Origin: Rhodococcus sp. ABRD24
GTDB taxonomy: Bacteria; Actinomycetota; Actinomycetes; Mycobacteriales; Mycobacteriaceae
Assembly: GCF_004328705.1 (NCBI RefSeq)
Contig: NZ_CP035319.1
Span: 1,178,001 to 1,242,000, forward strand
DNA: 64,000 nucleotides
Direction of reading: 5' to 3'
Position numbers and translations under genes: made by a program. Positions 42,594 through 62,758 of this stretch are shown piece after piece (position 1 is the stretch's first letter; each line of letters begins with the position of its first letter). Under the pieces are notes generated by a model. It searched no databases. It worked only from the letters and a program-made list of their open reading frames with translations, and had not been told where the DNA came from.

Positions 42594-43151
42594 ATGGCTT
42601 CTGACACCACCCCCGCACACCGTGACCTCGCTGACGCCGACACTCACTTCCGCGTCCAGCAGCTGTATTTCCGTGAGGCCGAACTGATCGACGACGGCCG
42701 ATTCACCGACTGGCTGGACCTGCTGGCCGAGGACCTGCACTACTGGGCACCTACGCGTACCAACCGGCTGCGGCGTCAGCAGTCGCTCGCGGTCGCCGCG
42801 CGCGGTGAGGCCGCCTTCTACGACGAGACCCGCGCGAGCCTGGCCTGGCGCATTCGCCGCTTCGACTCGGGCATGGCCTGGGCCGAGGATCCGCCGTCGC
42901 GCACCCGGCACCTGGTGAGCAACGTCGTCGTCCGCCACGCGGACGAGGACGAGCAGAAGATCGGGCAGTGGTACGCACGCTCGAACTTCATCGTCTACCG
43001 CAACCGGCTCGAGCGCGAGGTCGACATCTACTCCGGCGGCCGGGAGGACATCCTCCGCGAGACCGAGAGCGGCGGCCTGGTGGTCGCCCGCCGCAAGATC
43101 CTGCTCGATCAGAACGTGTTGCTGGCCAAGAACATCAGCACCTTCTTCTGA
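42594..43151 (+). CDS. Aromatic-ring dioxygenase beta subunit (HcaF-like)
   Basis: A 185-residue small subunit of the SnoaL-like fold family: FYFREAELIDDGRFTDWLDLL-type start, RRFDSGMAWAEDPPSRTRHLVSN in the middle, and KILLDQNVLLAKNISTFF at the end. It is structural in the alpha3beta3 oxygenase. Here it is separated from the alpha gene by the ferredoxin and reductase genes, unlike the E. coli hcaEFCBD order. Eight bases separate it from the reductase gene. Confidence 0.9.
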   Translation: MASDTTPAHRDLADADTHFRVQQLYFREAELIDDGRFTDWLDLLAEDLHYWAPTRTNRLRRQQSLAVAARGEAAFYDETRASLAWRIRRFDSGMAWAEDPPSRTRHLVSNVVVRHADEDEQKIGQWYARSNFIVYRNRLEREVDIYSGGREDILRETESGGLVVARRKILLDQNVLLAKNISTFF

Positions 43152-43216
43152 TCTCTCATTCCCCCTCGGAACTACCAGGCGACGATCCTCCCCAGACACA
43201 AGGAGCGCGTGACACA

Positions 43217-44098
43217 GTGACAACGAATGCAGCGGTAGAGACGGCCGTGACCAGCCGCGAGGTCGAGACCTCGCTCGGCACCATCAAGGTGAGCGAGGCC
43301 GGCGGCGGCCCGGTCCTGGTGATGCTGCACGGCGGTGGCCCGGGTGCGTCGGCGATCGCGAACTACAGCCAGAACCTCCCCGCTCTGACGCCGCACTTCA
43401 CCGTCGTGCTGCCGGACCAGCCGGGCTTCGGTGGCAGCTACCGCCCTACGGAGGAAGACCTCCAGCAGCGGAGCATCACGCAGATCACGGTGGACGCACT
43501 GATCCAGACGCTCGACGCGATGGGCATCGAGGAGTTCCACCTGATGGGCAACAGCCTCGGTGGTGCCGCCGCGATCGCCCTCGCGCTGGCGATCCCGCAC
43601 CGCGTCACCCGTCTGGTGCTGATGGCTCCGGGCGGTGGCTGGCTGCCGTTCGGCCCGACGCCGACCGAGGGTCAGAAGGCGATGTTCCGCTACTACAACG
43701 GCGGCGGCCCGACCGTGAAGAAGATGAAGGACTTCGTCCGCACCATGGTCGCCGATCCCAAGCAGTTCGACGACGCCAACATCGAGGCCCGCTACGAGGC
43801 GTCGCTGGACGAGAGCCACATGGAGTTCTATCACCGCTACAACGCCGCGTTCGCGCGTCGTCACGGCATGGATCCGCTGTGGCGCGACGCCCACAAGATC
43901 AAGGCCCCGACGCTGCTGCTGTGGGGCACCGAGGACCGCACCATCACGTTCGAAGGCTCGCAACTGATGCTCAAGCAGATCCCCGACGTGCAGCTGCACG
44001 CGTTCAGCAAGTGCGGCCACTGGGTGCAGGTCGAGCGCCAGAAGGAGTTCGAGCGGCTCGTGGTGGACTTCCTGACCGACTGTTCGGAGGACGCGTGA
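43217..44098 (+). CDS. Meta-cleavage product C-C bond hydrolase (MhpC/BphD-like)
   Basis: A 293-residue alpha/beta hydrolase. It has LHGGGPGASAIANYSQNL, the nucleophile Ser113 in MGNSLGGAAA, and the terminal histidine in KCGHWVQVE; these features define the MhpC/BphD group that splits ring-fission products into a hydroxydienoate and an acid. GTG 43217 is chosen as the first start in frame after AGGAG (43201). No extradiol dioxygenase is in this operon; the matching MhpB gene lies at 62 kb. Confidence 0.9.
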   Translation: MTTNAAVETAVTSREVETSLGTIKVSEAGGGPVLVMLHGGGPGASAIANYSQNLPALTPHFTVVLPDQPGFGGSYRPTEEDLQQRSITQITVDALIQTLDAMGIEEFHLMGNSLGGAAAIALALAIPHRVTRLVLMAPGGGWLPFGPTPTEGQKAMFRYYNGGGPTVKKMKDFVRTMVADPKQFDDANIEARYEASLDESHMEFYHRYNAAFARRHGMDPLWRDAHKIKAPTLLLWGTEDRTITFEGSQLMLKQIPDVQLHAFSKCGHWVQVERQKEFERLVVDFLTDCSEDA

Positions 44099-44931
44099 CC
44101 GGGTGGCTCGAGGGCAATGTCGCCCTCATCACCGGCGGCGGTTCCGGACTGGGCCGGGCCGTCGCCGAACGGTTCCTCGACGAGGGCTCCTCGGTCGTCG
44201 TCGCGGACCGTGATCCGGCCAAGCTGAGCGAGCTGGTGGAGGCGGCCGGCGATCGCGCCGATCGCGTCCACACGGTGGAGGCCGATGTCCGGTCGACCGC
44301 CGACCAGCATCGCGCGGTCTCGGAGGCCGTCGCGCGCTTCGGTAAGCTCGACACCCTGGTGCCGAACGCGGGTATCTGGGACTACCAGCGCAGCATCACC
44401 CGCCTGGATGGCGAAGCCCTGTCCGCGGCGTTCGACGAGTTGTTCGCGATCAACGTCAAGGGCTACCTGCTGGCCGTCGAGGCCGCGTGGCGTGAGCTGG
44501 TCAAGACCCGCGGCAGTGTCGTGATGACGCTGTCGAACTCGGCCTTCTATCCGAACGGAGGCGGACCGCTGTACACCGCGAGCAAGCACGCCTGCCGCGG
44601 GCTCGTGCTCGAGCTGGCGTACGAACTGGCCCCCAAGGTCCGGGTGAACGGCGTCGCGGCCGGCGGTATGCGCACCGATCTGCGTGGCCCCGAGTCGATC
44701 GGTCTGGCCGATCGGTCCATCGAGGCGTCGTTCGCACGCGGCACCACGACCGGTGACAACCCGCTGCTGCCGTTGCACGACGCCAGCGTCGATCCCGCCG
44801 ATTTCACGGCGCCCTACGTGCTGCTGGCTTCCGCAGCCAACAGCTCCAACATCACCGGTGCGATCATCCCCGTCGACGGCGGCATCGCCGCCCGCGGATT
44901 CCGCACCGCAGCAGGCGGTGACGATCTGTGA
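44095..44931 (+). CDS. cis-Dihydrodiol dehydrogenase-type SDR (HcaB-like)
   Basis: A 278-residue short-chain dehydrogenase. Cofactor motif LITGGGSGLGRAVAE, NAG in VPNAGIWDYQ, and catalytic residues in LSNSAFYPNG and YTASKHA. NAGIWDY resembles cis-dihydrodiol dehydrogenases (BphB, HcaB), which aromatise the dioxygenase product to a catechol. GTG start overlaps the hydrolase stop (GTGA). Confidence 0.9.
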   Translation: MTGWLEGNVALITGGGSGLGRAVAERFLDEGSSVVVADRDPAKLSELVEAAGDRADRVHTVEADVRSTADQHRAVSEAVARFGKLDTLVPNAGIWDYQRSITRLDGEALSAAFDELFAINVKGYLLAVEAAWRELVKTRGSVVMTLSNSAFYPNGGGPLYTASKHACRGLVLELAYELAPKVRVNGVAAGGMRTDLRGPESIGLADRSIEASFARGTTTGDNPLLPLHDASVDPADFTAPYVLLASAANSSNITGAIIPVDGGIAARGFRTAAGGDDL

Positions 44932-46529
44932 GCACCGACAAGGCCCCCGTCGATATCAGCCCCGCCCGCGCACTGCAATCACTGGGCCGCCTGCACGGCG
45001 CCAGCACCGCGCTGATCTACGAGGACCACACGATCGACTACCGCGATCTCACCGCTCGCGTACACGCAATGGCGCTGGCACTGCACGCCTCGGGTGTCCG
45101 CAAAGGCGACCGCGTGGCATACCTCGGCCTCAACAGCCCGACGTTCCTGGTGACCTACCTGGCAGCGGCCTGGGTGGGCGCGGTGTACGTACCGGTCAAC
45201 TTCCGTCTCGCCGCCGCCGAGATCGCGTATCAGCTAGGCGATTTCGGACCTCGTGTACTGATCGTCGAGCCCGGGCACATGCCGGTGATCGAGGAGATCG
45301 ACCCAGCAGTCCAGCCGCCGCGGATGATCGCGGTCGACAACGACGACGCGGTGCCGCTCAGCGATGCGCCGTCGGGACGCTGGGAGAAGCTGACCACCGC
45401 ACTCGCGCGCGGCGCTGCACTCGAGACGGAGCTGACACCGCTACCCCGCTTCGCGGACGACCTGGCTGCGCTGATGTACACGTCGGGCACCACGGGACGT
45501 CCCAAGGGCGTCATGCTCACGCACGGCAACATCTGGTGGAACTCGTTCAACGTGGACTCGGTGGTGGACACCAACCGCCGTGACATCAACCTCGCAGTGG
45601 CTCCGCTGTTCCATATCGGATGCCTCAACTCGTTCACACTGCGCAGCCTCAGCCGCGGCGGCGCGACGCTGGTCCGTCGCACGTTCGACCCCGCGGGCAC
45701 GCTCGCCGACCTGGTGGAGCACAAGGTCAACACGATCTTCGCGGTACCCGCGATGTTCTCCGCGATCGCACAGTTGCCCGAGTTCGCGGACGCGGACCTG
45801 TCGCAGCTGCGCTCGGCGATCGTCGCCGGGGCTCCGGTGCCGCCGAGCCTGGTCAAGGAGTACGGCCGCCGCGGTGTCTCGCTGCAGCAGGCGTGGGGTC
45901 TGACCGAGACGGCACCGTTCGCGACGTCACTGCCGCCCGAGCGGACGCTCGAGCGGGCGTCGTCGGCGGGCCTGCCGATGCCGTTCACGGAAATCAAGAT
46001 CGTCGATCCGGTGACGGGTGCGACACTCACCGAGGCCAATGCGGCCGGTGAGATCTGCGTGCGCGGCCCGAACGTCACGCCCGGCTACTGGGCCAACCAG
46101 CAGGCCACCGACGCTGCATTCGACGCCGAGAACTGGTTCCACTCCGGCGATCTGGGCTGCCTGGACGAGGAGGGCTTCCTCTACATCGTCGACCGGATCA
46201 AGGACATGGTGATCACGGGCGGCGAGAACGTCTATCCCGCCGAGGTCGAGCGGGTGCTCGTCGAGTACCCGGGAGTGACCGATGCGGCCGTCGTCGGTGC
46301 CCCCGATCCCAAGTGGGGCGAGGTTGTGGTCGCGGTGCTCTGCGTGTCGAGCGAGAAGGACCCGACGCTCGAGGAGATCCGCGCGTTCACCGGCGAGCGC
46401 CTCGCCCGGTACAAGCTCCCCAAGGAACTGCTCGTCTTGGATTCGTTGCCGCGCAACGGCTCCGGCAAGCTCGACAAGGTCTCACTGCGCAAGCTCGCAG
46501 CCGACGGCCATCGCGCACTGAACCGATGA
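44928..46529 (+). CDS. Acyl-CoA synthetase / AMP-dependent ligase (FadD-like)
   Basis: A 533-residue ANL-superfamily enzyme with P-loop YTSGTTGRPKGVMLTHG, ATP-binding QQAWGLTETAPF, the hinge region DRIKDMVITGGENVYP, and the catalytic lysine in LPRNGSGKLDK. It activates a carboxylic acid as CoA thioester. In a dioxygenase operon it may activate the aromatic side-chain acid or the acid released by C-C hydrolysis. Start GTG overlaps the preceding stop (GTGA). Ligase genes are not part of the E. coli hca-mhp set. Confidence 0.9.
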   Translation: MSTDKAPVDISPARALQSLGRLHGASTALIYEDHTIDYRDLTARVHAMALALHASGVRKGDRVAYLGLNSPTFLVTYLAAAWVGAVYVPVNFRLAAAEIAYQLGDFGPRVLIVEPGHMPVIEEIDPAVQPPRMIAVDNDDAVPLSDAPSGRWEKLTTALARGAALETELTPLPRFADDLAALMYTSGTTGRPKGVMLTHGNIWWNSFNVDSVVDTNRRDINLAVAPLFHIGCLNSFTLRSLSRGGATLVRRTFDPAGTLADLVEHKVNTIFAVPAMFSAIAQLPEFADADLSQLRSAIVAGAPVPPSLVKEYGRRGVSLQQAWGLTETAPFATSLPPERTLERASSAGLPMPFTEIKIVDPVTGATLTEANAAGEICVRGPNVTPGYWANQQATDAAFDAENWFHSGDLGCLDEEGFLYIVDRIKDMVITGGENVYPAEVERVLVEYPGVTDAAVVGAPDPKWGEVVVAVLCVSSEKDPTLEEIRAFTGERLARYKLPKELLVLDSLPRNGSGKLDKVSLRKLAADGHRALNR

Positions 46530-46912
46530 GCACACCGGGCTGGCCACTGAAGTACACGATGGACGTCGATGGTGCCCCGTTCGAGGTCCGCGCACGTTAC
46601 GCCGTGCGCGGACCTCTCGGCAACGCGTACCCGGCCGGTGTAGCCGACCTGGAGATCGACATCGAGGGATTGCGCGACGCCCAGGCGCTGACAGTCCTCG
46701 GCCGCCGCATCCTGGCTGACCATCCCGCGTGTCGCCGCGTCGTGCTGCCCGTCGCGGCCGGCGATCTCGTGGCGATCGGCCACGCCGAGGACGCCGGATT
46801 TCGATACGTCGTCGACGTTGACGTTCGAGGCGAGCTGAGCCAGATCACCGAGCTTTCCCTCATGGTCCTGGAACCTGGATGGGTCACCGAGATCGGTCGG
46901 TCGCAGAGGTAG
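46526..46912 (+). CDS. Small GNAT-like protein at the end of the dioxygenase operon
   Basis: A 128-residue protein. The end of the sequence (RRVVLPVAAGDLVAIGHAEDAGFRYVVDVDV, then a strand LSLMVLEP) has the shape of a GNAT acetyltransferase C-terminus, but the acetyl-CoA loop is not clear, so an enzymatic role is uncertain. Its ATG overlaps the ligase stop by four bases (ATGA), so it is expressed with the pathway. A strong hairpin follows. It may be a CoA-binding accessory; this is inference. Confidence 0.6.
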   Translation: MSTPGWPLKYTMDVDGAPFEVRARYAVRGPLGNAYPAGVADLEIDIEGLRDAQALTVLGRRILADHPACRRVVLPVAAGDLVAIGHAEDAGFRYVVDVDVRGELSQITELSLMVLEPGWVTEIGRSQR

Positions 46913-46930
46913 TTTCGTCTGACAAACTCA

Positions 46931-46963
46931 GGGCGGTGGGTTCCACATCGGAACCCACCGCCC
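46931..46963 (+). terminator. Terminator of the dioxygenase operon
   Basis: Perfect 14-base arms GGGCGGTGGGTTCC/GGAACCCACCGCCC with a five-base loop ACATC are followed by TTT. It lies 19 bases after the last stop codon and isolates the operon from the downstream iclR gene. Confidence 0.9.
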
Positions 46964-47049
46964 TTTCACCATTTCCAGGGTGGAGACGATCGACCGCTCG
47001 GAGCAGCATCTCCATAGCGAGGGCGGATCGAGGAAGGAGGCGGTTCGAC

Positions 47050-47847
47050 ATGGCAGGTACTCCTCGAGAAGCCGGCCGAACCACAGCGTCGCGGATACTT
47101 GCGATCCTGGAAGTGTTCGAGGAGGACCCTGGGCCGCTGGCGTTGAGCGACATTGCGGCCACGACGGGCATGCCGTTGACGACGGTCTATCGCTTGGTAG
47201 GCGAACTCGAGCAGTGGGGCGCACTCCTGCGCGGACCGGACGGCCGCTACCAGATCGGCATCCGGCTGTGGGCGATCGGCCAGAATGCCGGGCTTCGGCT
47301 TCGTGACATCGTCCATCCGCCACTGCAGGACCTGTTCGATCTGACTCACGAGACGGTTCACTTCGTGGTGCGGCGCGGAACCGAAGTGATCTACGTAGAT
47401 CGCATCTACGGAAGCAGGCGCGTCCCACGACTGGCGCGCGTCGGTAGCCGATTGCCCCTGCACCCGACCGCTGTCGGAAAGGTGATGCTGGCATATCAGG
47501 ACCCGTGGTTCAGGGAGACGTACCTCGCCCATTCGCTGGAGCGGCGCTCGAGATTCACAATCACCGAACCGGCGCGGCTCGCGCGGGAACTCGACACCAT
47601 CCGAGAGCAAGGCTTTGCGAAGACGCAGGAGGAGATGGCCCTCGGGTCATGTTCGATTGCGATCCCGGTTCGGGCGCCGAACGACGAAGTTGTCGCTGCC
47701 ATCGGCGTCGTACTCCCCAGCAGCCGATCAGCCGACATGGCGCGCTTCCTGCCACCGCTCCGAGGCACCGGCGCACGCCTGGAGAGGGTCTTCAAGGCTC
47801 TTCCGCAGCCCGTTGAACAGGCAATACGAACCTTCTGGCTCGGCTGA
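47050..47847 (+). CDS. IclR-family transcriptional regulator
   Basis: A 265-residue IclR protein. The winged helix has LALSDIAATTGMPLTTVYRLVGELE. The effector domain includes ETVHFVVRRGTEVIYVDRI, RLPLHPTAVGKVMLA and EEMALGSCSIAIPVRA. ATG follows GGAGG (47036-47040) with nine bases. It sits after the dioxygenase terminator and before the cre-like operon, on the same strand as both. It is the obvious candidate to control the phenol-phosphorylation operon, possibly also the dioxygenase operon. Confidence 0.9.
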   Translation: MAGTPREAGRTTASRILAILEVFEEDPGPLALSDIAATTGMPLTTVYRLVGELEQWGALLRGPDGRYQIGIRLWAIGQNAGLRLRDIVHPPLQDLFDLTHETVHFVVRRGTEVIYVDRIYGSRRVPRLARVGSRLPLHPTAVGKVMLAYQDPWFRETYLAHSLERRSRFTITEPARLARELDTIREQGFAKTQEEMALGSCSIAIPVRAPNDEVVAAIGVVLPSSRSADMARFLPPLRGTGARLERVFKALPQPVEQAIRTFWLG

Positions 47848-47923: not shown

Positions 47924-48025
47924 ATGGAGACTGTCACCACACGACATCGAGGCGACAACGACGACAACGGCCTCCTCGCCGACGTCGATGCGCCCACAGC
48001 CGCTATCGACGAACCCGCACAGTAG
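47924..48025 (+). CDS. 33-residue ORF with a near-ideal ribosome binding site, upstream of the P450 fusion gene
   Basis: The ATG is preceded by TAAGGAGG (47911-47918) with a five-base spacer, a stronger site than that of most genes here. The product is a hydrophilic, acidic 33-mer (METVTTRHRGDNDDNG at the N-terminus, ending DEPAQ) with no signal peptide or hydrophobic stretch. It lies between the iclR stop and the P450-ATP-grasp gene, 74 bases before the latter. It could be a leader peptide, a small accessory protein, or a remnant. I recognise no family. Confidence 0.5.
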   Translation: METVTTRHRGDNDDNGLLADVDAPTAAIDEPAQ

Positions 48026-48099
48026 CGCCGGCCTTCCATAGTCGTCTGCCGAAGCAACAGACAACGCGCGCCCGCGCCCTCCCAGATCCAGGAGTGACA

Positions 48100-50469
48100 A
48101 TGCCCGCCCCCACCGACCCTGCTGCCACGCGTAATTATCCCGTCGACCACCATGGCTACGAGCCGTTCAAGATGAACGACCCGTTCCCCGCCTATGCGCG
48201 CCTCCGATCGGAGGAGCCGGTGATGTTCGACGAACGAATCGGATGCTGGGTAGTCAGCCGTTACGAGGACATCAAGGCGGTCTTCGACGACTGGGAGACC
48301 TTCAGCAGCGAGAACGCGCAGGCGCCGGTCCGCGAACGTGGATCGCAGGCGAAGAAGATCATGGCGGACGGCGGTTTCACGGCCTATTCAGGGCTGTCGG
48401 CCCGACGGCCTCCGGAGCACACGCGGATCCGGAAAGCGGTATCCAAGGCGTTCACCCCGCGCCGCTACAAGGCTCTCGAACCATTCATCCGCGACAACGT
48501 GGACCGGCAGCTGCGCGCGCTGCTCGCGCATGAGGATCGCCGGGGCGACCTGCTGCGCGACCTCGCCTACGACGTGCCGACCGTCACGATCTTGACGCTG
48601 ATCGGCGCGGACGCCGACAAGGTCGACCAGTTCAAGCGCTGGTCCGACTCGCGCGCGGCGATGACCTGGGGTGATCTCAGCGACGACGAGCAGGTCCCGC
48701 ACGCACACAATCTCGTCGAGTACTGGCACGAGTGCCTGCGTCTGGTGGCGCACGCCCACGAGCACGGCGGCGACAATCTGGTCGCCGATCTCGTCCGCGC
48801 GCAGGAAGAAGGAAGCGAGATCACCGATCACGAGATCGCGTCGGTCTGCTACAGCCTGCTGTTCGCCGGCCACGAGACGACCACGACATTGATCTCGAAC
48901 ACGCTTCGTCTCCTGCTCGCCCACCGCGATCAGTGGGAGGCCCTCGCCCAGGACCCGAAGAAGATTCCGCAGGCAATCGACGAGGTCCTCCGATTCAGTC
49001 CCTCGATCGTCGGCTGGCGACGTAAGGCACTCGAGGACACGGTGATCGGAGAAACCCCGATTCCTGCCGGTGCCGAGATCCTGCTCGTCATGGGATCCGG
49101 GAACCGGGACGAATCGAAGTTCACCGATCCCGAGGTCTTCGACATCACCCGAGGCAATGCACGTGAGCATCTCGCATTCGGGTTCGGCCTGCACTACTGC
49201 CTGGGAAACATGCTCGCCAAACTCCAGGTGAAGATCGTTGTCGAGGAGCTGTTGAAGACTGCTCCGTTCCTCGAACTCGTCGACCCCGAGGCCATCACCT
49301 TCGGCGACAACCTCTCGTTCCGGGCCCCGACGGCGGTACCAGTGCGCTGGGACGATCCGAGCAGCGACACAACCGAGGACTCCCCCGCCCGGTACATCCA
49401 GTTCTTCGACGACCTGCAAGCGCCGCAGCACGATCAGCTCGGCGGCAAGTGCGCATCACTGGTATCTCTGACCACGGCGGGGATGCCGGTGCCGCCCGGG
49501 TTTGCACTGACCACCGCGCTCTACGATTCCTTCATCGAGGAAGCCGGCATCGCCGACGAGATCCAGCGGTTGCTGGACGGCCTCGACCCCGAAGACGTTG
49601 CTCACGTCGACGCGGTCTCCGCCCAGATCCGCGATGCGATCACCTCGCGTGCGGTCCCCGAACCGCTCCGGCGCCTGACGATCGATGCCTACCACAGATT
49701 GCAGGCCCGCTTCGATCAGCCCGTACCGGTCGCTGTGCGATCCTCGGCGACGGCGGAGGACCTTCCCGACGCAAGCTTCGCCGGGCAGCAGGACACATAC
49801 CTGTGGCTCAACGGAATCGACGAGGTACTCGAACGCATCCGTTGTTGCTGGGCATCGCTGTACACCAGCCGCGCCATCATCTACCGGCTCAAGAACAACA
49901 TTCCCGACACGGGGCTGTCCATGGCCGTCGCGGTCCAGAAGATGGTCAGCGCCAAGGTCGCCGGCGTCGCGATGACGATGGATCCGACCAATGGCGATCG
50001 ATCCAAGATCACCGTCGACGCATCGTATGGCGTCGGCGAGATGGTGGTCTCCGGACAGGTCACCCCGGACAACATCGTCATGGACAAAGTGATGTTGACC
50101 GTGGTTTCGGAGACCATCGGCGACAAGCACGCCGAGCTCGTTCCAGACCCCGGATCACACCGCCTCGTGGAAAGAGACGTCGACGCCGACCGCCGCACCC
50201 GACGAAGCCTGACCGACCAGGAACTGCAGGCCGTCGCCGCGATCGCCAAGCGCGCCGAGAAGCACTACGGGTGCCCGCAGGACATCGAATGGGCGCTCGA
50301 CGCCGACCTGCCGGACGGCGAGAACCTGCTGCTCCTACAGTCCCGACCCGAAACGGTGTGGTCCTCGAAACCCAAGCAGGACAAAGTGACCGAATCAAAG
50401 AAGTCTGCCCGGCCGGGGCTCGACCTGACCGGAATCAGCCGGGCGATGACCCGGCCCCGCACCGCGTAA
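48100..50469 (+). CDS. Cytochrome P450 fused to PEP-synthase-like ATP-grasp domain (CreJ-CreH-like fusion)
   Basis: A 789-residue fusion. Residues about 1-415 are a bacterial P450 with I-helix FAGHETT (A256-T261), the ExxR in DEVLR, and heme loop FGFGLHYCLG with Cys367. After a short linker, residues about 430-765 are a complete PPDK_N/PEP-synthase nucleotide-binding domain: LGGKCASL (from 447), VRSSATAEDLPDASFAGQQ, WASLYTSRAIIYR, KMVSAKVAGVAMTMDPTNGD and LLLQSRPETVWS. In the Corynebacterium cresol pathway these activities belong to CreJ (oxidises aryl phosphates) and CreH (phosphorylates the phenol with CreI). Fusion would place phosphorylation and hydroxylation of one substrate on one chain. 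ATG 48100 has AGGAG five bases upstream; GTG 48094 overlaps that site. Confidence 0.9.
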   Translation: MPAPTDPAATRNYPVDHHGYEPFKMNDPFPAYARLRSEEPVMFDERIGCWVVSRYEDIKAVFDDWETFSSENAQAPVRERGSQAKKIMADGGFTAYSGLSARRPPEHTRIRKAVSKAFTPRRYKALEPFIRDNVDRQLRALLAHEDRRGDLLRDLAYDVPTVTILTLIGADADKVDQFKRWSDSRAAMTWGDLSDDEQVPHAHNLVEYWHECLRLVAHAHEHGGDNLVADLVRAQEEGSEITDHEIASVCYSLLFAGHETTTTLISNTLRLLLAHRDQWEALAQDPKKIPQAIDEVLRFSPSIVGWRRKALEDTVIGETPIPAGAEILLVMGSGNRDESKFTDPEVFDITRGNAREHLAFGFGLHYCLGNMLAKLQVKIVVEELLKTAPFLELVDPEAITFGDNLSFRAPTAVPVRWDDPSSDTTEDSPARYIQFFDDLQAPQHDQLGGKCASLVSLTTAGMPVPPGFALTTALYDSFIEEAGIADEIQRLLDGLDPEDVAHVDAVSAQIRDAITSRAVPEPLRRLTIDAYHRLQARFDQPVPVAVRSSATAEDLPDASFAGQQDTYLWLNGIDEVLERIRCCWASLYTSRAIIYRLKNNIPDTGLSMAVAVQKMVSAKVAGVAMTMDPTNGDRSKITVDASYGVGEMVVSGQVTPDNIVMDKVMLTVVSETIGDKHAELVPDPGSHRLVERDVDADRRTRRSLTDQELQAVAAIAKRAEKHYGCPQDIEWALDADLPDGENLLLLQSRPETVWSSKPKQDKVTESKKSARPGLDLTGISRAMTRPRTA

Positions 50470-50523: not shown

Positions 50524-52338
50524 ATGACGATGAAGTCCTTCCCAAGCCCCTTCGACCTCGAAACCCCTGCGGGCGCCGAGGGATGGGAGGAGCTCTACCC
50601 CTACAACTTGGTCTTCCAGCCGAGCCGCAAGGACGTCGAGGACGGCAAGTTCTGGTTCTGCGACAGCCAGCACTGGCCCACCGTGTTCAAACCGTTCGAG
50701 ACGATCGGCGGCGAGTTCGCCGTCAAATGCCTGGGGCAGTACAACACCAAGCATCTGTTGATTCCCAACTCGAACGGCATCGAGTTCCGGATCCACCTCG
50801 GCTACCTGTACATGTCGCCGATCCCCGCTCCCGAGGAGGAGTTCGACGCGCGGGTGCCACTGTTCGAAGAGCGGGCCGCGTACTACTACCAGAACTGGGA
50901 GCCGCTGCTCGAGAAGTGGCACAAGAAGGTTCGGCTGACCATCGACGAGATGGAGGCGCTGTCCTTCGAGAAGCTGCCGGCCATGGTGCCGATCGAGGAC
51001 ATCCGGTCCGGTAAGGCCAAGGACGGCACCGAGGTCCTGCTCGAGAACTACGATCGGCTGATCCAGCTCTGCTACCAGAACTGGCAGTACCACTTCGAGT
51101 TCCTCAACCTCGGGTACATCGCCTACCTCGACTTCTTCGGCTTCTGCAAAGAGGCCTTCCCGAACATCCCGGACCAGTCGATTGCAACCATGGTCCAGGG
51201 CGTGGACATGGAACTGTTCCGCCCAGACGACGAACTGAAGGAACTGGCCAAGCTTGCCGTCGAGCTCGACCTCACCTCGCTGTTCGACGACACCGCGGAC
51301 GTCGACGGAACCCTGGCCCGGATCGCTCAGGCCGAGAACGGGGCCCGGTGGATCTCCCAGTACGAAGCCGCCCAGGATCCGTGGTTCAACTTCACGGTCG
51401 GCAACGGCTTCTACGGGCACGACAAGTACTGGATCGAGCACCAGGACCTGCCACTGGGCTATATCGCCGACTACATCCGCCGTTTGAACGAGGGACAGGA
51501 CATCATGCGTCCGGTCGCCGAGCTCGCCGTCGAGCGTGACCGGATCGCCGCCGAGTACCGCGATGTCCTCGACGGCGAGGCACGAGAGACGTTCGACGCC
51601 AAGATCGCCCTCGCCCGAACCGCCTACCCGTACGTCGAGAACCACAACTTCTACATCGAGCACTGGACGATGGGCGTGTTCTGGCGCAAGGTGCGTGAAC
51701 TGTCCCGCATGCTGCACGAGGAGGGATTCTGGGCCGAGCCGGACGACCTGCTGTACCTCAACCGCGGTGAGGTGCGCGAGGCACTGTTCGACCTGGCCAC
51801 CGCCTGGGGTGTCGGCGCGGAGCCGATCGGACCGCACTACTGGCCTGCGGAGATCGACCGCCGGAGGGGCATCATCGACGCGCTCAAGTCCCGCCGACCG
51901 GAACCGGCGCTGAACACCCCTCCCGAGTTCATCACCGAGCCGTTCACCAGCATGCTGTACGGCATCACCACCGAGCAGGTCCAGCAGTGGCTCAGTGACG
52001 ACGAGGAATCCAGCGACCATCTGCGCGGGATGGCAGCATCGCCGGGCGTCGTGGAGGGCATCGCCCGCGTGATCACCAGCTCGGACGAACTATCCGAGAT
52101 CCAGGACGGGGAAATCCTCGTCGCACCTGTGACCGCACCGTCGTGGGGTCCGATCTTCGGAAAGATCAAGGCCACCGTTACCGACATCGGCGGCATGATG
52201 AGCCACGCCGCGATCGTGTGCCGCGAATACGGCCTGCCGGCGGTGACCGGCACCGGATCCGCGTCCACCCAGATCAAGACCGGACAGCGGCTCCACGTCG
52301 ACGGCACCAAGGGTGTCGTCACCGTTCTGAGCGAATGA
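50524..52338 (+). CDS. creI: PEP-utilising-enzyme family protein with phospho-His swivel domain (CreI-like)
   Basis: A 604-residue protein. The first 500 residues are aromatic-rich (FWFCDSQHWPTVFKPFE, YYYQNWEPLLEKWHKK) and form the large subunit body seen in phenol-phosphorylating enzymes. The C-terminal 90 residues are a PPDK mobile domain: GMAASPGVVEGIARVI, then GGMMSHAAIVCREYGLPAV with phosphoryl-carrier His561. There is no PEP-binding barrel. With the ATP-grasp domain of the preceding fusion it would make a two-component phenol kinase similar to CreHI or phenylphosphate synthase. ATG follows AAAGGAAA. It lies 54 bases after the fusion gene. Confidence 0.85.
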   Translation: MTMKSFPSPFDLETPAGAEGWEELYPYNLVFQPSRKDVEDGKFWFCDSQHWPTVFKPFETIGGEFAVKCLGQYNTKHLLIPNSNGIEFRIHLGYLYMSPIPAPEEEFDARVPLFEERAAYYYQNWEPLLEKWHKKVRLTIDEMEALSFEKLPAMVPIEDIRSGKAKDGTEVLLENYDRLIQLCYQNWQYHFEFLNLGYIAYLDFFGFCKEAFPNIPDQSIATMVQGVDMELFRPDDELKELAKLAVELDLTSLFDDTADVDGTLARIAQAENGARWISQYEAAQDPWFNFTVGNGFYGHDKYWIEHQDLPLGYIADYIRRLNEGQDIMRPVAELAVERDRIAAEYRDVLDGEARETFDAKIALARTAYPYVENHNFYIEHWTMGVFWRKVRELSRMLHEEGFWAEPDDLLYLNRGEVREALFDLATAWGVGAEPIGPHYWPAEIDRRRGIIDALKSRRPEPALNTPPEFITEPFTSMLYGITTEQVQQWLSDDEESSDHLRGMAASPGVVEGIARVITSSDELSEIQDGEILVAPVTAPSWGPIFGKIKATVTDIGGMMSHAAIVCREYGLPAVTGTGSASTQIKTGQRLHVDGTKGVVTVLSE

Positions 52339-52339
52339 C

Positions 52340-53098
52340 ATGACAGACAAAAATGGCACGGGCAGAACGGTTTTGATCACCGGCGGGGCCGGCGGACTGG
52401 GTCGCGCATTCGCTCTGGGCTTCGCCGAACGAGGCTATCGGGTCGCGGTGGCCGATATCGACGGAACCGGCGCGGACGAGACCGCAAGGCTTCTGCGTGA
52501 GAGTGGCGCCGCTGCAACGTCGGTCACAGTGGATGTGACCTCGGTCGAATCCACGGACGCGATGGCCGCCTCGGTTGCGGAGTTCGGCGGTGGCCATATC
52601 GACGTCCTGGTCAACAACGCTGCGATCTATGCGGGTGTGACGCGGTCGCGCTTCGAGGAGATCGATCCCGCCGAATGGGACCGAGTCATGGCAGTGAATC
52701 TGAAGGGCCCCTGGATGTGTGCGCGGGCGTGCAGCCCACACCTCGCGGACGGCGGCTCTGTGGTGAACCTGTCCTCGGCCACGATCCTCAGCGGCTCCGC
52801 GAACTGGATGCACTACGTCGCCTCGAAGGGCGGTGTCGTGGCCCTCACCCGAGTGATGGCCAAGGAGTTGGGGGCTAGGTCGATCACCGTCAACGCCATC
52901 GCTCCGGGCTTCACCCTGACCGAGGCCAGCTACGGCCTGATGGAAGGGGCCGAAACCTACGGTGTCGACCGCGGCGCACTCAAGCGGGCCAGCCGGCCCG
53001 AGGACATCGTCGGTGCCGCACTGTTCCTGGCCAGCCCGGACAGCGAGTACATCACCGGCCAAACTCTCGTCGTCGACGGCGGACGACAGTTCATCTAG
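52340..53098 (+). CDS. creG: Short-chain dehydrogenase (CreG-like)
   Basis: A 252-residue classical SDR with cofactor motif LITGGAGGLGRAF (residues 12-24), NNAA (92-95), active-site Ser145/146, Tyr159 and Lys163 (YVASK), and DGG near the end. The ATG lies one base after the creI stop, so it is translationally linked. In the cresol pathway the CreG dehydrogenase oxidises the hydroxybenzyl alcohol to the aldehyde; the same step is assigned here by context. Confidence 0.82.
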   Translation: MTDKNGTGRTVLITGGAGGLGRAFALGFAERGYRVAVADIDGTGADETARLLRESGAAATSVTVDVTSVESTDAMAASVAEFGGGHIDVLVNNAAIYAGVTRSRFEEIDPAEWDRVMAVNLKGPWMCARACSPHLADGGSVVNLSSATILSGSANWMHYVASKGGVVALTRVMAKELGARSITVNAIAPGFTLTEASYGLMEGAETYGVDRGALKRASRPEDIVGAALFLASPDSEYITGQTLVVDGGRQFI

Positions 53099-53109: not shown

Positions 53110-53430
53110 ATGCCCAAAGTTACGTACACCGACTGCGACGGGAACGCCCGAGCAGTCGAAGGCAATGTCGGTGACTCCGTCATGGAAGTCGCGATGCGCA
53201 ACGGAGTAGCCGGCATCGTTGCCGAATGCGGCGGCTCGCTGTCGTGCGCGACGTGCCATGTCTTCGTCCGCCCGGACCAGTTCGACGAACTGCCCGCCAT
53301 GGACGACATGGAGGACGAAATGCTGTACGGCACAGCAGTGGAACGACAGGCGAACTCGCGGCTGTCCTGCCAGATCAAGCTCACCGAGGACCTCGATCTG
53401 GACGTGAGCACACCGGAAACGCAGGTCTAG
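53110..53430 (+). CDS. creF: [2Fe-2S] ferredoxin, putidaredoxin type (CreF-like)
   Basis: A 106-residue adrenodoxin/putidaredoxin-type ferredoxin with ligands Cys40, Cys46, Cys49 and Cys87 (AECGGSLSCATCH and LSCQ). It carries electrons from the reductase encoded next to the P450 domain. AGGAG stands before the ATG. It lies 11 bases after the SDR gene. Confidence 0.9.
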   Translation: MPKVTYTDCDGNARAVEGNVGDSVMEVAMRNGVAGIVAECGGSLSCATCHVFVRPDQFDELPAMDDMEDEMLYGTAVERQANSRLSCQIKLTEDLDLDVSTPETQV

Positions 53431-53432
53431 CG

Positions 53433-54740
53433 ATGGACTCTCACACCTCCGCCGGCGAGGACGGACTGCTGATCGTCGGGGCGAGCCAGGCCGGGGTACA
53501 GCTCGCCGGCTCACTGCGCGCCCTCGGATACGAACCGCCCATCACGCTCCTGGGAGACGAGAACCACCGCCCGTACCAGCGACCGGCGCTGTCCAAGGAG
53601 TTCCTCCAGGGACTGGTCACCTCCGAGTCGCTGATCTTCCGGACCGCCGAGTACTGGGACGAGCACCGCATCCGATTGATCATGGGCGAGCGCATCACGA
53701 CCGTCGACCGCCGAGTCGACGGGTCGGGTGTCGCAACCGCGGCGTCCGGAGCGCAGTTCCCCTTCGACCGATTGGCGCTCACCGTCGGTGCCCGGCCTCG
53801 GCCCCTCCAGGTAGAGGGCAGCGGATTGGACGGAGTGCTGTACCTGCGCAATGCCGACGACGCGCTCGATCTGCGACGACGCATGCCCGACGCCACCGAT
53901 GTCGTCGTGGTCGGCGGAGGATTCATCGGACTCGAGGCCGCTTCGAGCGCACGGAAGATGGGCAAACGGGCAACCGTTCTGGAAGCAGGTCCGCGGCTGA
54001 TCGGACGGGCTGTGGGCCAACAAACGTCCGCGTTCTTCCTGCAGGCACACCGCGACCGCGGTCTCCGGATCGAGCTCGATGCGACGGTCGCTCGAATCGT
54101 CGGCGAGAACGGCACGGTCACCGGTGTCGAGCTCGCCGACGGACGGGTCATAGCCGCGCAGATCGTCCTCGTGGGCATCGGAGTGGTGCCCAACGTCGAA
54201 CTGGCGCAGTCGATGGGTCTGTTGTGCGACAACGGTATCCGTGTCGACGAGTACGCCCTGGCCTCGGATGGAACGACCGTTGCCGTGGGTGACTGCGCGA
54301 ACATGCCCAACCCCGTACCAGGGGCACCGCCCGGCGACCGGATCCGCGTCGAAAGCGTCAACAACGCGATCGAGCATGCCAAGGTTGCGGCGTACTCCCT
54401 TACCGGCCGGCACACCGAATACACCGGTACACCGTGGTTCTGGTCGAACCAAGCCGATCTGAAACTGCAGATCGCGGGATTGGCCACCGGATACGACGAC
54501 ACCGTGGTGCGTCGGGACGACGCGAAAGGCAAGTTCTCCGTCCTGTACTACCGCAACGGGCGCATCATCGCCGCCGACTGTGTCAACAACCCACTCGACT
54601 TCATGGCCGTCAGGAACGCCCTGGCGAAACGCGCTGACATCCCCGCCGACCTGGCGGCCGATCCCACGACAGCTCTGAAGACGATCACGACCGAGGGCGC
54701 TCTCGTTCTCTCGGCTCCGCCATCGCCCGAATCGAGGTAA
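53433..54740 (+). CDS. creE: Ferredoxin reductase for the P450 (CreE-like)
   Basis: A 435-residue FAD-dependent NAD(P)H:ferredoxin reductase. FAD motif LLIVGASQAGVQLAGSL, the RPYQRPALSKEF segment, the NAD motif VVVVGGGFIGLEAAS, and VAVGDCAN before the C-terminal domain. The start lies two bases after the ferredoxin stop. Together with CreF-like ferredoxin it completes a class I P450 electron chain dedicated to the fused P450. Confidence 0.88.
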   Translation: MDSHTSAGEDGLLIVGASQAGVQLAGSLRALGYEPPITLLGDENHRPYQRPALSKEFLQGLVTSESLIFRTAEYWDEHRIRLIMGERITTVDRRVDGSGVATAASGAQFPFDRLALTVGARPRPLQVEGSGLDGVLYLRNADDALDLRRRMPDATDVVVVGGGFIGLEAASSARKMGKRATVLEAGPRLIGRAVGQQTSAFFLQAHRDRGLRIELDATVARIVGENGTVTGVELADGRVIAAQIVLVGIGVVPNVELAQSMGLLCDNGIRVDEYALASDGTTVAVGDCANMPNPVPGAPPGDRIRVESVNNAIEHAKVAAYSLTGRHTEYTGTPWFWSNQADLKLQIAGLATGYDDTVVRRDDAKGKFSVLYYRNGRIIAADCVNNPLDFMAVRNALAKRADIPADLAADPTTALKTITTEGALVLSAPPSPESR

Positions 54741-54748
54741 ACGCACCG

Positions 54749-55396
54749 ATGCGTACCCCCACCACCCGCCCCGTCGACACTTCCCCGATCGCCGCGGCGC
54801 CCGACGCTGCCACCGACCTGGATCCGATCTGGAAGTCCGTCGTCCCCGAGACGCGAACGCGTGGCAACGACATCCACCTGCCCACGTCGTTCGCCTATGC
54901 GGAGCGCCTGTGCGACTGCTATCCGGACGCGGACGCACTCGTCGTCCGCGTCGCAATCCTGCTGCACGACACCGGATGGGGTCGAGTGGATGAATCGCGC
55001 ATTATTTCCGAAGGCTTCAGCGGAGACTGGCGCAAGGCCGCGATCCGTTACGAGCACGAGCGCCAGGGCTGCCTCATCGCACGCGAGGTCCTACCGCCTC
55101 TGGGATACAGCGAGGATTTCGTCGAACGCGTCTGCGCAATCATCGACGGCCACGACACTCGCCAGGACGCACACTCCCTCGAAGACGAGTTGGTGCGCGA
55201 CGCGGACCGGCTGTGGCGCTTCGGGCCCACCGGGATCGCATTGGCGTCGTCGTGGTTCGGAATGACCCCGGCGCTGTACTGCGATCGCCTCGAGATCGAG
55301 ATCCTGCCCGAGCTGAAAACCGAAGCCGCCCATCAGATCGCAGTCGCCGATCTCGCCAGATCGCGTGCCTTGCTGAGGACGGACGTGCTGCGATGA
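54749..55396 (+). CDS. creD: HD-domain phosphohydrolase (CreD-like)
   Basis: A 215-residue HD protein. Metal-binding candidates are His43, His73-Asp74 (LLHDTG), His103, His135-Asp136 (DGHD) and Asp151/Asp153 (RDADRLWR). In the cresol pathway CreD removes the phosphate after P450 oxidation. Assignment rests on the HD signature plus its place in the operon. The start codon lies eight bases after the reductase stop, and the stop overlaps the aldehyde dehydrogenase start. Confidence 0.82.
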   Translation: MRTPTTRPVDTSPIAAAPDAATDLDPIWKSVVPETRTRGNDIHLPTSFAYAERLCDCYPDADALVVRVAILLHDTGWGRVDESRIISEGFSGDWRKAAIRYEHERQGCLIAREVLPPLGYSEDFVERVCAIIDGHDTRQDAHSLEDELVRDADRLWRFGPTGIALASSWFGMTPALYCDRLEIEILPELKTEAAHQIAVADLARSRALLRTDVLR

Positions 55397-56856
55397 ACCG
55401 GGCATCGCTCGCGCTCCCCTACACCCACGTCGACGACCTGTTTGTGGGAGGCCGTTGGGTCACGTCGGCCGGAACCGAACGCATCGAGGTCGTCGACCCG
55501 GCCACCGAGGAGGTCTGGGGTTCGGTGCCCGATGCGACCACCGAGGATGTCGATGCGGCGGTGCGCGCCGCGGACCGTGCCTTTCACACCCCGGGCTGGT
55601 CGGATCTGCGTCCGTCTGCGCGGGCAGAATATCTCTTGCGGATCGCGGACGAGATCGAAGAGCGGGCCGAACCCATGTCGTGGACCAACACCCGGGAGAA
55701 CGGCAGCCCTGTCGCCGAGACCTCGGGCAGCGCTTCCAACGCCGCCGGGATCTTCCGATACTTCGCGTCACTGGCCTCGTATCTCGAGAACGACGACGAG
55801 CGTCCCTATCCGAACGGTCTGGGAACGACCACCGTCTTTCGCGACCCCGTCGGTGTCTGTGCACTCATTGCGCCGTGGAACTTCCCGATCAACCTCGTCG
55901 TCGCCAAGCTGGCGCCCGCGCTGATTGCCGGTTGCACGGTGGTGATCAAACCTGCCGAGTCGACTCCGCTGTCGATTCGGTTCGTCATCGAGGCCGTCTC
56001 GGCGGCCGGTGTCCCGCCCGGCGTGGTCAACCTGGTGACCGGCACGGGTGCCGTCGGGGATCGCCTCGTGCGTCATCCGCTGGTCCGCAAGGTCGCCTTC
56101 ACCGGGTCGACACCCGTCGGAAGGAAGATCGCCGCGGCCTGCGGTGAACTGTTGCGGCCGGTCACACTCGAACTCGGCGGCAAGTCGTCGGCGATCGTGC
56201 TCGAGGATGCCGATCTGGACGCCTTCGCACAGGTCTTGATCCGGTCCTGCATGCGCAACACGGGCCAGACGTGTTACATCTCGACCAGAATTCTGGCGCC
56301 TGCGGCGCGGTACGCGGAAGTGGTCGACACGGTTACCCGAACCGTCGCCGCTGCCAAGCAGGGCGACCCGCTCGACGCGGACACCGACTTCGGTCCGTCG
56401 GCCACCGAGGAGCAGTACAAGATCGTCCTGAAGTACCTCGACAGCGCCCGAGCCGAGGGAGCCCGTGTCACTACCGGCGGTGGCCGCGCCGCCACCGACC
56501 GCGGGTACTTCGTGCAGCCCACCGTCCTCGCCGATGTAACCCCGGACATGACCATTGCTCGCGAGGAGATCTTCGGCCCGGTTGTCACAATCCTGCCGTA
56601 CGAGACCGTCGACGACGCAATCCGGATTGCGAACGACACCGATTTCGGGCTCGGCGGAATCATCTTCTCCCGTAACGAGACTCAGGCCATCGCGCTGGCA
56701 CGCAGAATCGACACGGGATCGGTCGGAATCAACTTCTTCGCCTCGAACCACAGTGCGCCGTTCGGCGGTCGACGCGACTCGGGGCTGGGAGTCGAGTTCG
56801 GAATCGAAGGTCTCAACGCGTACCTGACCCCGCAATCGGTTCACCACCGAACGTAG
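55393..56856 (+). CDS. creC: Aldehyde dehydrogenase (CreC-like)
   Basis: A 487-residue NAD(P)-dependent aldehyde dehydrogenase with Asn163 (PWNF), Glu260 (LELGGK) and nucleophile Cys294 (GQTCY). It would oxidise the hydroxybenzaldehyde to hydroxybenzoate, the last step of the cre-type route. ATG overlaps the HD gene stop (ATGA). Ring cleavage of the product (for example protocatechuate pathway) is not encoded in this window. Confidence 0.88.
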   Translation: MNRASLALPYTHVDDLFVGGRWVTSAGTERIEVVDPATEEVWGSVPDATTEDVDAAVRAADRAFHTPGWSDLRPSARAEYLLRIADEIEERAEPMSWTNTRENGSPVAETSGSASNAAGIFRYFASLASYLENDDERPYPNGLGTTTVFRDPVGVCALIAPWNFPINLVVAKLAPALIAGCTVVIKPAESTPLSIRFVIEAVSAAGVPPGVVNLVTGTGAVGDRLVRHPLVRKVAFTGSTPVGRKIAAACGELLRPVTLELGGKSSAIVLEDADLDAFAQVLIRSCMRNTGQTCYISTRILAPAARYAEVVDTVTRTVAAAKQGDPLDADTDFGPSATEEQYKIVLKYLDSARAEGARVTTGGGRAATDRGYFVQPTVLADVTPDMTIAREEIFGPVVTILPYETVDDAIRIANDTDFGLGGIIFSRNETQAIALARRIDTGSVGINFFASNHSAPFGGRRDSGLGVEFGIEGLNAYLTPQSVHHRT

Positions 56857-61825: not shown

Positions 61826-62758
61826 CTACCGCGCCGTGGTCACCGCAAATCCCGCGACCCATTCGGGAATGGGCCGGTAGTAACGCAACCGCACCTCGTA
61901 CGAACCCGAGGCCGCGAGTGCCGCATACGCAGCGATCCATGTCCGCACCTCGTGCGACGAACCGCCGGCCTGCTCCTCGAAGAACTCGTTGGTCCAGCCG
62001 TCGAACACCTCGAGATCGCCTGCGGCGACGATGTCGAGAACATCGTTGTCCCACTCCGGGTTCAGCGGTTTACGCGTGGAAGTTCCTGCAGCCAGGTCGA
62101 TTCCGGACTGCACGACGCGCTGCTCACCCCGAGCGCGCTGCTCGGGCGTGGGCGGATTACCGAGAATCAGCGCCTCCGCGACCCGCGGCGGGGCACCCGC
62201 GAGGATCGGTACCGGCGGATCGTGCGACAGACCGCCTGACGCCAGGAACAGCACACGCTTGTCGAGTAGCCTCGCCGCCTCGCCGAGCGCCTTGCCGAAC
62301 TGGCGGATCCGGCGCACCGGACCGAGTGGCGCCGCAACGCCGTTGATGAATACCGGCACCACTGGGACCGACCGGATTCCGCCGAACAGCATCTCGAGCG
62401 GCTGCACGAACCCGTGATCGACCACCATGCGAGCCGAGATCGTCAGATCGATGTCACGCTCGAGCACGCCCTCTGCCATCGCATTGGCCGACTCCGCGTC
62501 GACCAGAATCTCCCCCTCGGCGGATCCGAAGTCGCCCACCGCGATCGCGCCCGTCGCAATCGCGAACGGGGGCATCTTCTCGTAGAAGAAGCCGTTGTAG
62601 TGATCCGGCGCGAACAGCACGACGATCTCGGGATCGAACTCCTCGATGAATGTGCGGGCCCCGGCGACGGCGTGATCGACCTCGTCGAGCACCTCCTGGT
62701 CCGGATCGTTGAGCCCGATCAACGGTGAATGGGACAGCGCAACCAGCGCTACTGTCAT
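61826..62758 (-). CDS. mhpB: 2,3-Dihydroxyphenylpropionate 1,2-dioxygenase (extradiol ring cleavage)
   Basis: A 310-residue class III (LigB-type) extradiol dioxygenase. LSHSPLIGLNDPDQEVLDEV opens the protein, FAPDHYNGFFYE follows, catalytic His115 is in VDHGFVQPLE and His179 in SGGLSHDPP, the same numbering as the catalytic pair in E. coli MhpB. The C-terminus ends YYRPIPEWVAGF. It opens the ring of 2,3-dihydroxyphenylpropionate, giving the substrate of an MhpC-type hydrolase; such a hydrolase is encoded at 43.2 kb. It is preceded by an iclR gene on the same strand 61 bases upstream. Confidence 0.93.
   Translation of the reverse strand: MTVALVALSHSPLIGLNDPDQEVLDEVDHAVAGARTFIEEFDPEIVVLFAPDHYNGFFYEKMPPFAIATGAIAVGDFGSAEGEILVDAESANAMAEGVLERDIDLTISARMVVDHGFVQPLEMLFGGIRSVPVVPVFINGVAAPLGPVRRIRQFGKALGEAARLLDKRVLFLASGGLSHDPPVPILAGAPPRVAEALILGNPPTPEQRARGEQRVVQSGIDLAAGTSTRKPLNPEWDNDVLDIVAAGDLEVFDGWTNEFFEEQAGGSSHEVRTWIAAYAALAASGSYEVRLRYYRPIPEWVAGFAVTTAR

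Follow-up and report, generated by a model that had tools for sequence, protein, structure and literature searches.

A cytochrome P450 joined to a CreI-type ATP-grasp subunit in a cre-like gene block of Rhodococcus sp. ABRD24

Here we describe an open reading frame in which a cytochrome P450 and an ATP-grasp phosphorylation domain share one polypeptide chain. It lies in a window of 64,000 nucleotides from Rhodococcus sp. ABRD24 (contig NZ_CP035319.1, positions 1,178,001 to 1,242,000), inside a block of genes that all read in one direction and run from an IclR-type regulator through the fusion of CreJ (the P450) with CreI (the ATP-grasp protein) to CreH, CreG, CreF, CreE, CreD and CreC (Table 1), the names of the reductase (E) and the ferredoxin (F) following the part of PMC9549646 that was covered. 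The identical order, opposite end first, extends from cg0637 (creC) to cg0645 (creJ) in Corynebacterium glutamicum, where, as the original prediction had stated, the two homologues are separate genes, cg0645 creJ and cg0644 creI (PMC7764795, in part). The fused frame occupies 48094-50469 on the forward strand and holds 791 codons from a GTG with no internal stop; judged by eye, the likelier start is the ATG at 48100, which has AGGAG upstream and gives 789 amino acids. Upstream, between regulator and fusion, is a 33-codon frame (47924-48025, forward strand) with a strong AAGGAGG ribosome site, absent from all nine related loci checked by script. A promoter scan returned no sites, against 1.5 expected in shuffles.

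Table 1. Features of the block in window coordinates.
Feature	Coordinates	Strand	Basis
IclR-type regulator, opening the conserved block	46879-47847	+	Pfam IclR_C/HTH_IclR
CreJ-CreI fusion (P450 + ATP-grasp)	48100-50469	+	ORF, Pfam, homologues
CreJ-type P450 domain, residues 18-418 (numbered from the GTG)	48145-49347	+	match to CreJ 5gwe/5xjn
Interdomain linker, ~15 residues, Asp/Glu/Ser/Thr-rich	49348-49392	+	model pLDDT, junction comparison
CreI-type ATP-grasp domain, residues ~434-754	49393-50355	+	PPDK_N; fold match HpeI 9goj
C-terminal tail: flexible stretch and motif LDLTGISRAMT (50419-50451)	50356-50466	+	motif analysis
CreH, phenol-binding and swivel domains	50524-52338	+	Pfam PEP-utilizers, homologues
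CreG-like short-chain dehydrogenase	52340-53098	+	Pfam, synteny
CreF-like 2Fe-2S ferredoxin	53110-53430	+	Pfam Fer2, synteny
CreE-like ferredoxin reductase (approximate start)	53430-54740	+	Pfam Pyr_redox_2, Reductase_C, synteny
CreD-like HD-domain phosphohydrolase	54749-55396	+	Pfam HD, synteny
CreC-like aldehyde dehydrogenase (approximate start)	55400-56856	+	Pfam Aldedh, synteny

The frame, the Pfam matches (PF00067, p450, at 1.6e-30; PF01326, PPDK_N, at 2.2e-108 over residues 447-769) and the relatives all bear out the claim of a P450 followed without a stop by PPDK_N in one chain. Neither a stop nor a frameshift, which the original prediction had named as what to look for, occurs between residues 415 and 440, and the junction is likewise open in full-length homologues of 85-87% identity from other genomes of the same genus (Prescottella). 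Since these relatives hold the frame through the junction, a sequencing error or frameshift is ruled out as the source of the fusion, and chance is no concern as an explanation of the fused frame. Among 14 same-genus genomes searched at E <= 1e-100, four (this one included) carry the intact fusion, nine have no match, and one, with an assembly completeness of 79%, has a fusion broken within the P450 part. A frameshift in that part, either assembly error or decay, is seen in Prescottella defluvii (L025, the same as G003). Between the halves the AlphaFold model drops to a mean pLDDT of 57 (block of residues 421-430), and with a pTM of 0.65 no rigid arrangement of P450 and ATP-grasp domain was obtained for the fusion.

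Compared with solved structures, the P450 half is closest to CreJ (5gwe/5xjn; 71% identity, TM-score 0.97-0.98), and since 5xjn is a complex with 4-ethylphenyl phosphate, this homology suggests that the half takes phosphorylated alkylphenols as CreJ does. The features that define a CreJ-type P450 are all present, namely the fold, the I-helix threonine (T262, within AGHETT at residues 258-263, numbered from the GTG), the ExxR pair (E297/R300) and the heme cysteine (C369, codon 49198-49200, or 367 when counted from the ATG at 48100), so that the landmarks reported earlier were located just where they had been placed. A self-sufficient P450 is ruled out: the chain contains no redox domain, and ferredoxin and reductase are separate genes at 53110-54740.

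The other half has what marks a CreI/HpeI/PpsB-type protein, a PPDK_N domain with its ATP-site residues in a chain that lacks a swivel domain and ends after the tail. Here the original prediction had the subunit names the wrong way round, calling the ATP-grasp domain CreH and its partner CreI-like: according to the part of PMC12167813 covered, the ATP-grasp protein is HpeI/CreI/PpsB, and the protein with the swivel histidine and the phenol-binding domain is HpeH/CreH/PpsA, which makes the gene 3' of the fusion CreH. That protein carries the phospho-histidine, His561, within TDIGGMMSH (codon 52204-52206). A two-component phenol dikinase has an adjacent CreH-type subunit with a swivel histidine, as found here, and two unfused components, which is not the case here, CreI being joined to the P450 while separate from CreH. 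Identity as a PEP synthase or PPDK is ruled out, PF02896 being found by Pfam in neither the fusion nor CreH. When the ATP-grasp domain was modelled together with CreH, the first fold match was rifampin phosphotransferase, which fits domain by domain and only loosely overall (TM 0.39/0.44, rmsd 31).

It is very improbable, in our view, that the ATP-grasp domain lacks activity or merely regulates, with another CreI serving CreH. The genome does contain a second ATP-grasp match (36% identical, C1:135423-136367, in an 855-codon frame), for which no support in this role was found; the genome search shows no closer CreI, no gene separates the fusion from creH, and the five ATP-grasp positions checked (K452, R549, E732, Q749 and R751) are all kept. 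Nine positions of the fusion which we take to be catalytic are intact, and the same nine are identical in all 45 fused proteins of alignment A2; both halves are very probably functional.

The surroundings of the fusion are well conserved. In 78 loci from named genomes, CreI and CreH were matched 78 times, the aldehyde dehydrogenase 69, the P450 and the reductase 67 each, and IclR, HD, short-chain dehydrogenase and ferredoxin 66 each (matches at >=35% identity, except ferredoxin and HD, which had no such limit; a few of the matches are distant ones at another place in the locus, and certain loci are short). Of the 67 P450-bearing loci, 65 have an IclR match ahead of the P450, and the CreH gene adjoins CreI in 79 of 81 loci, the two being a single chain in the other two. 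The genome also has a 4-hydroxybenzoate hydroxylase-like (pobA-like) gene, at 465 bits below the cut-off of 538.7, and two protocatechuate dioxygenase beta genes above the cut-off; together these would carry 4-hydroxybenzoate onward. Other genes for aromatic catabolism lie in the window as well: a 3-carboxyethylcatechol 2,3-dioxygenase near the cre block (61826-62758, reverse strand), and an HsaD/BphD-like hydrolase, a dihydrodiol dehydrogenase and an acyl-CoA ligase (42968-46529, forward strand).

Taken together, these data make it probable that the locus is a cre-type 4-alkylphenol operon, its creJ and creI merged into one gene, with the pathway and division of labour that follow. The most likely substrate, judged by homology and synteny, would be 4-cresol. 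By analogy with HpeHI, the CreI domain would bind ATP and phosphorylate His561 of the separate CreH, which would transfer the phosphate to a phenol held in its own pocket. Once CreH had released the aryl phosphate, the P450 domain would oxidise its alkyl group with electrons supplied by the ferredoxin CreF and the reductase CreE; CreG and CreC would oxidise the product further, and CreD would take the phosphate off to leave 4-hydroxybenzoate. The fusion, its intact catalytic residues, the operon and the recurrence of the fusion are read from sequence, whereas the chemistry would carry over from HpeHI and from the work on C. glutamicum, where the Cre pathway was reportedly described by Du et al. 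in 2016 and 2017.

This division of labour changes what the fusion may do. A hand-over of substrate between the fused domains had been proposed, and this does not hold if CreH, a separate protein, binds the phenol as HpeHI suggests: the fusion would then lack one of the two substrate sites, and any hand-over would have to pass via CreH. Similarly, what the fusion would fix is not the proposed stoichiometry with the kinase partner, since CreH remains free, but a ratio of 1:1 between P450 and CreI. The chain would thus combine the phosphate donor with the user of the phosphorylated product, the phenol site being elsewhere, in CreH. Because CreI has to dock on CreH in every cycle, proximity can still arise, each docking bringing the P450 near the site of substrate release. 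Under the in vitro conditions used, HpeH and HpeI did not associate stably (PMC12167813, in part), so by analogy the docking would be transient and the time in proximity may be short. A benefit from proximity is one that we put forward tentatively, as a possibility that falls well short of an even chance.

How often, then, has this fusion arisen? In the 67 loci with both P450 and CreI, a stop separates the parts in 63, which are split adjacent genes, an uninterrupted J-I frame is found in three (Prescottella agglutinans, L014; Cryobacterium aureum, L022; Rhodococcus tukisamuensis, L024), and the remaining locus, L025, is interrupted inside the P450. In 396 genomes of the phylum searched at a threshold of 1e-90, this genome gave the sole full-length match and nine others matched the ATP-grasp part alone, with two candidates scored per genome, so that distant P450s are hidden. 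The search for proteins carrying both P450 and PPDK_N, which the original prediction had asked for, gave at least 58 clustered database proteins, at least 53 of them free of signs of frameshift or fragmentation (P0018, P0096, P0108, P0119 and P0120 were set aside). In the fused proteins listed, 6-65 residues (median 19) lie between the ends of the two BLAST matches. The architecture had also been called undescribed, and no published description of a P450 joined to an ATP-grasp domain was found in the open-access literature searched, but with at least 53 database proteins sharing it, it is undescribed as far as found rather than unseen in databases.

The split or fused label takes eight changes on the 80-row P450 tree, seven of them forced by well-supported branches; each change could reflect either the joining or the separation of the two parts. 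A single origin of all P450-CreI fusions is rejected, the AU test on this tree refusing to place them in one clade (p = 1.06e-5). A first FastTree of all 184 rows, doubtful rows included, took ten changes, eight forced. The later tree was given 84 of the 184 rows: doubtful rows (P0018, P0096, P0104, P0106, P0108, P0119, P0120, L025 and L073) and most separate P450s (P0026-P0103) were left out and near-identical split rows were thinned, from 103 to 84, before the long-branch rows P0105, P0107, P0113 and P0118 were dropped as well; the protein rows were the best 120 of 196 matches. The ATP-grasp tree gives five changes for the P450 fusion, four forced, but its proteins are the best 120 of 5794 and only those of ~540-1720 aa, so fused forms are over-represented among its deep branches, and the P450 tree gives the more reliable count. 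The trees for these counts were 'quick' (SH-aLRT only) or FastTree. L027, from Saccharopolyspora shandongensis, has one stop codon within its CreI match and was omitted from the fold alignments; one of the doubtful rows, P0106, is a 710-aa database protein that joins an IclR regulator to a P450, the first two members of the cre block. The P450-CreI fusion seems to be rare and yet recurrent, arising from a common arrangement of two adjacent genes.

That same arrangement is the basis of a serious rival to any benefit for flux, namely that creJ and creI were joined neutrally, by one small indel, and that the product works and brings no advantage. Because the pair lie side by side, frequently overlap and are probably translated together, such an indel is enough to join them: of ten split junctions, five have an ATGA overlap, four are a few bases apart and one about 40 apart. 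At the junction of the fused frame in L022 there is a single additional base compared with the split relatives L048 and L049, whose genes show the ATGA overlap; this illustrates a route to fusion, although it is a single-genome case and could be an assembly error. The rarity of the fusion, with a stop retained in nearly all loci and one full-length match in the phylum sample, fits neutral joining too. What speaks against it is that some fused clades are wide, as in the nine-row clade of Prescottella, R. tukisamuensis and metagenome or other sources, or deep, as in those that include Solirubrobacteraceae and a Chloroflexi record, and that the junction in the window has no in-frame ATG: the stretch from residue 400 to 454 offers no start-like codon in frame except a GTG at 417, without a visible ribosome site. 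On balance neutral joining, which concerns the benefit only, is a credible account whose chances we put slightly below even. Another reading, that the fusion serves to equalise the amounts of P450 and CreI and that their position in space is irrelevant, strikes us as unlikely. The overlap at half of the split junctions would already tie their translation, and the remaining genes of the operon stay separate, both of which are in keeping with co-regulation, but an overlap that already gives near-equal translation leaves little to gain from fusing.

A further, unexpected feature lies at the end of the chain. In CreI proteins the last ATP-grasp motif, QSRPET, is followed by a loose stretch and then by a short conserved motif, with the consensus FGIESITRSLL in our training set and SIVDTLVNPL-like forms elsewhere; in the AlphaFold model of the fusion the tail is a short helix of low confidence. 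The tails of 73 separate CreI proteins (the interrupted L025 among them) served to train an 11-column profile, and 72 of them beat their own shuffles (p <= 0.02), partly by construction. Among the matches listed, 48 of 55 P450-CreI fusions pass the profile, the one in the window included; by eye, five of the other seven have an L-x-P form and two (P0007 and P0008) look degraded. Three further fusions (P0014, P0017 and P0019) end their ATP-grasp part in CRPET and were unscored, and the motif is visible in them by eye. The picture differs in proteins that join CreI to CreH in a single chain of RPH-like order (L016, 11243-14200; L082, 9947-12814; P0242-P0248, P0251 and P0258; P0250 was left out for signs of a frameshift). 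One of these 11, among the matches listed, passes the profile, nine lack the motif, and P0258 (p = 0.05) has a relic of it by eye. They amount to five changes on the ATP-grasp tree, with the motif lost in four by our reading, against none or one of eight for the P450 fusions (Fisher p = 0.007 or 0.03, rough values because the origins were counted by hand). The number of CreH columns altered in the CreI-CreH fusions, six, is not significant (control mean 0.8, but maximum 15).

All ten CreI proteins from loci without a P450 match have the motif as well (all of them training rows, from loci that in some cases span only 6-12 kb), so the motif probably has a partner other than the P450. From these patterns we infer that the conserved tail may be a peptide that docks on CreH, and that it would be lost once CreI is covalently joined to CreH. 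AlphaFold did not place the tail on CreH with confidence: the motif blocks have a mean pLDDT of 30-36 with CreH and 43-45 in the model of the fusion without it, so CreH does not raise the scores of the tail. A query of PDB chains with the tail alone, the HpeI chain included, returned no matches, and the parts of the HpeHI paper covered make no mention of such a tail (PMC12167813). A parallel to the P450-CreI case is possible in P0309, one cluster of two sequences from a 2.9-kb contig, where a NagD-like HAD phosphatase is N-terminal to a CreI/HpeI-type ATP-grasp domain with the tail motif visible by eye; in the hpe cluster the phosphatase is proposed to be HpeD, which among characterised proteins is most similar to NagD (24% identity; PMC9618137, in part). 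Perhaps CreI is a docking hub, its C-terminal peptide leading it to CreH while the next enzyme of the pathway is repeatedly added at its N-terminus (the P450 several times independently, the phosphatase in P0309), so that a transient cluster both makes and uses the aryl phosphate; as a whole this reading, the loss of the tail included, is speculative and rather doubtful.

Set beside known systems, the locus is closest to the CreHI-CreJEF 4-cresol pathway of C. glutamicum, with the P450 71% identical, the order J-I-H-G-F-E-D-C and the functions the same, except that CreJ and CreI are separate there and one chain here. The hydroxyphenylethanone dikinase HpeHI of Rhodococcus rhodochrous GD02 (PDB 9goj) is also a two-component dikinase, split into HpeI and HpeH (PMC12167813, in part), but HpeI is a free monomer and the hpe gene table has no P450 (PMC9618137, in the part covered). 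Rifampin phosphotransferase (RPH) shares the ATP-grasp, substrate-binding and swivel domains and holds all three in one chain, whereas in the window the ATP-grasp domain shares its chain with the enzyme that acts next in the pathway rather than with the swivel and substrate-binding domains. Self-sufficient P450s (CYP102, CYP116B) are natural P450 fusions too, the CYP116B heme domain being ~30% identical; they carry their own redox partner, while the P450 of the window carries half a kinase and leaves ferredoxin and reductase separate. In the open-access literature searched we found no account of a P450 fused to a portion of a small-molecule kinase.

The protein is thus a recurrent fusion variant within the known Cre pathway. 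If the fusion speeds the hand-over of the aryl phosphate, nature would have supplied a design for converting alkylphenols by phosphorylation, oxidation and dephosphorylation, a form of biocatalysis for which separate CreH, CreI, CreJ and CreD are already in use in Escherichia coli (PMC9549646, in part). The CreI tail may, in turn, offer a handle on how the two halves of the kinase meet, where the HpeHI study saw no stable complex (PMC12167813).
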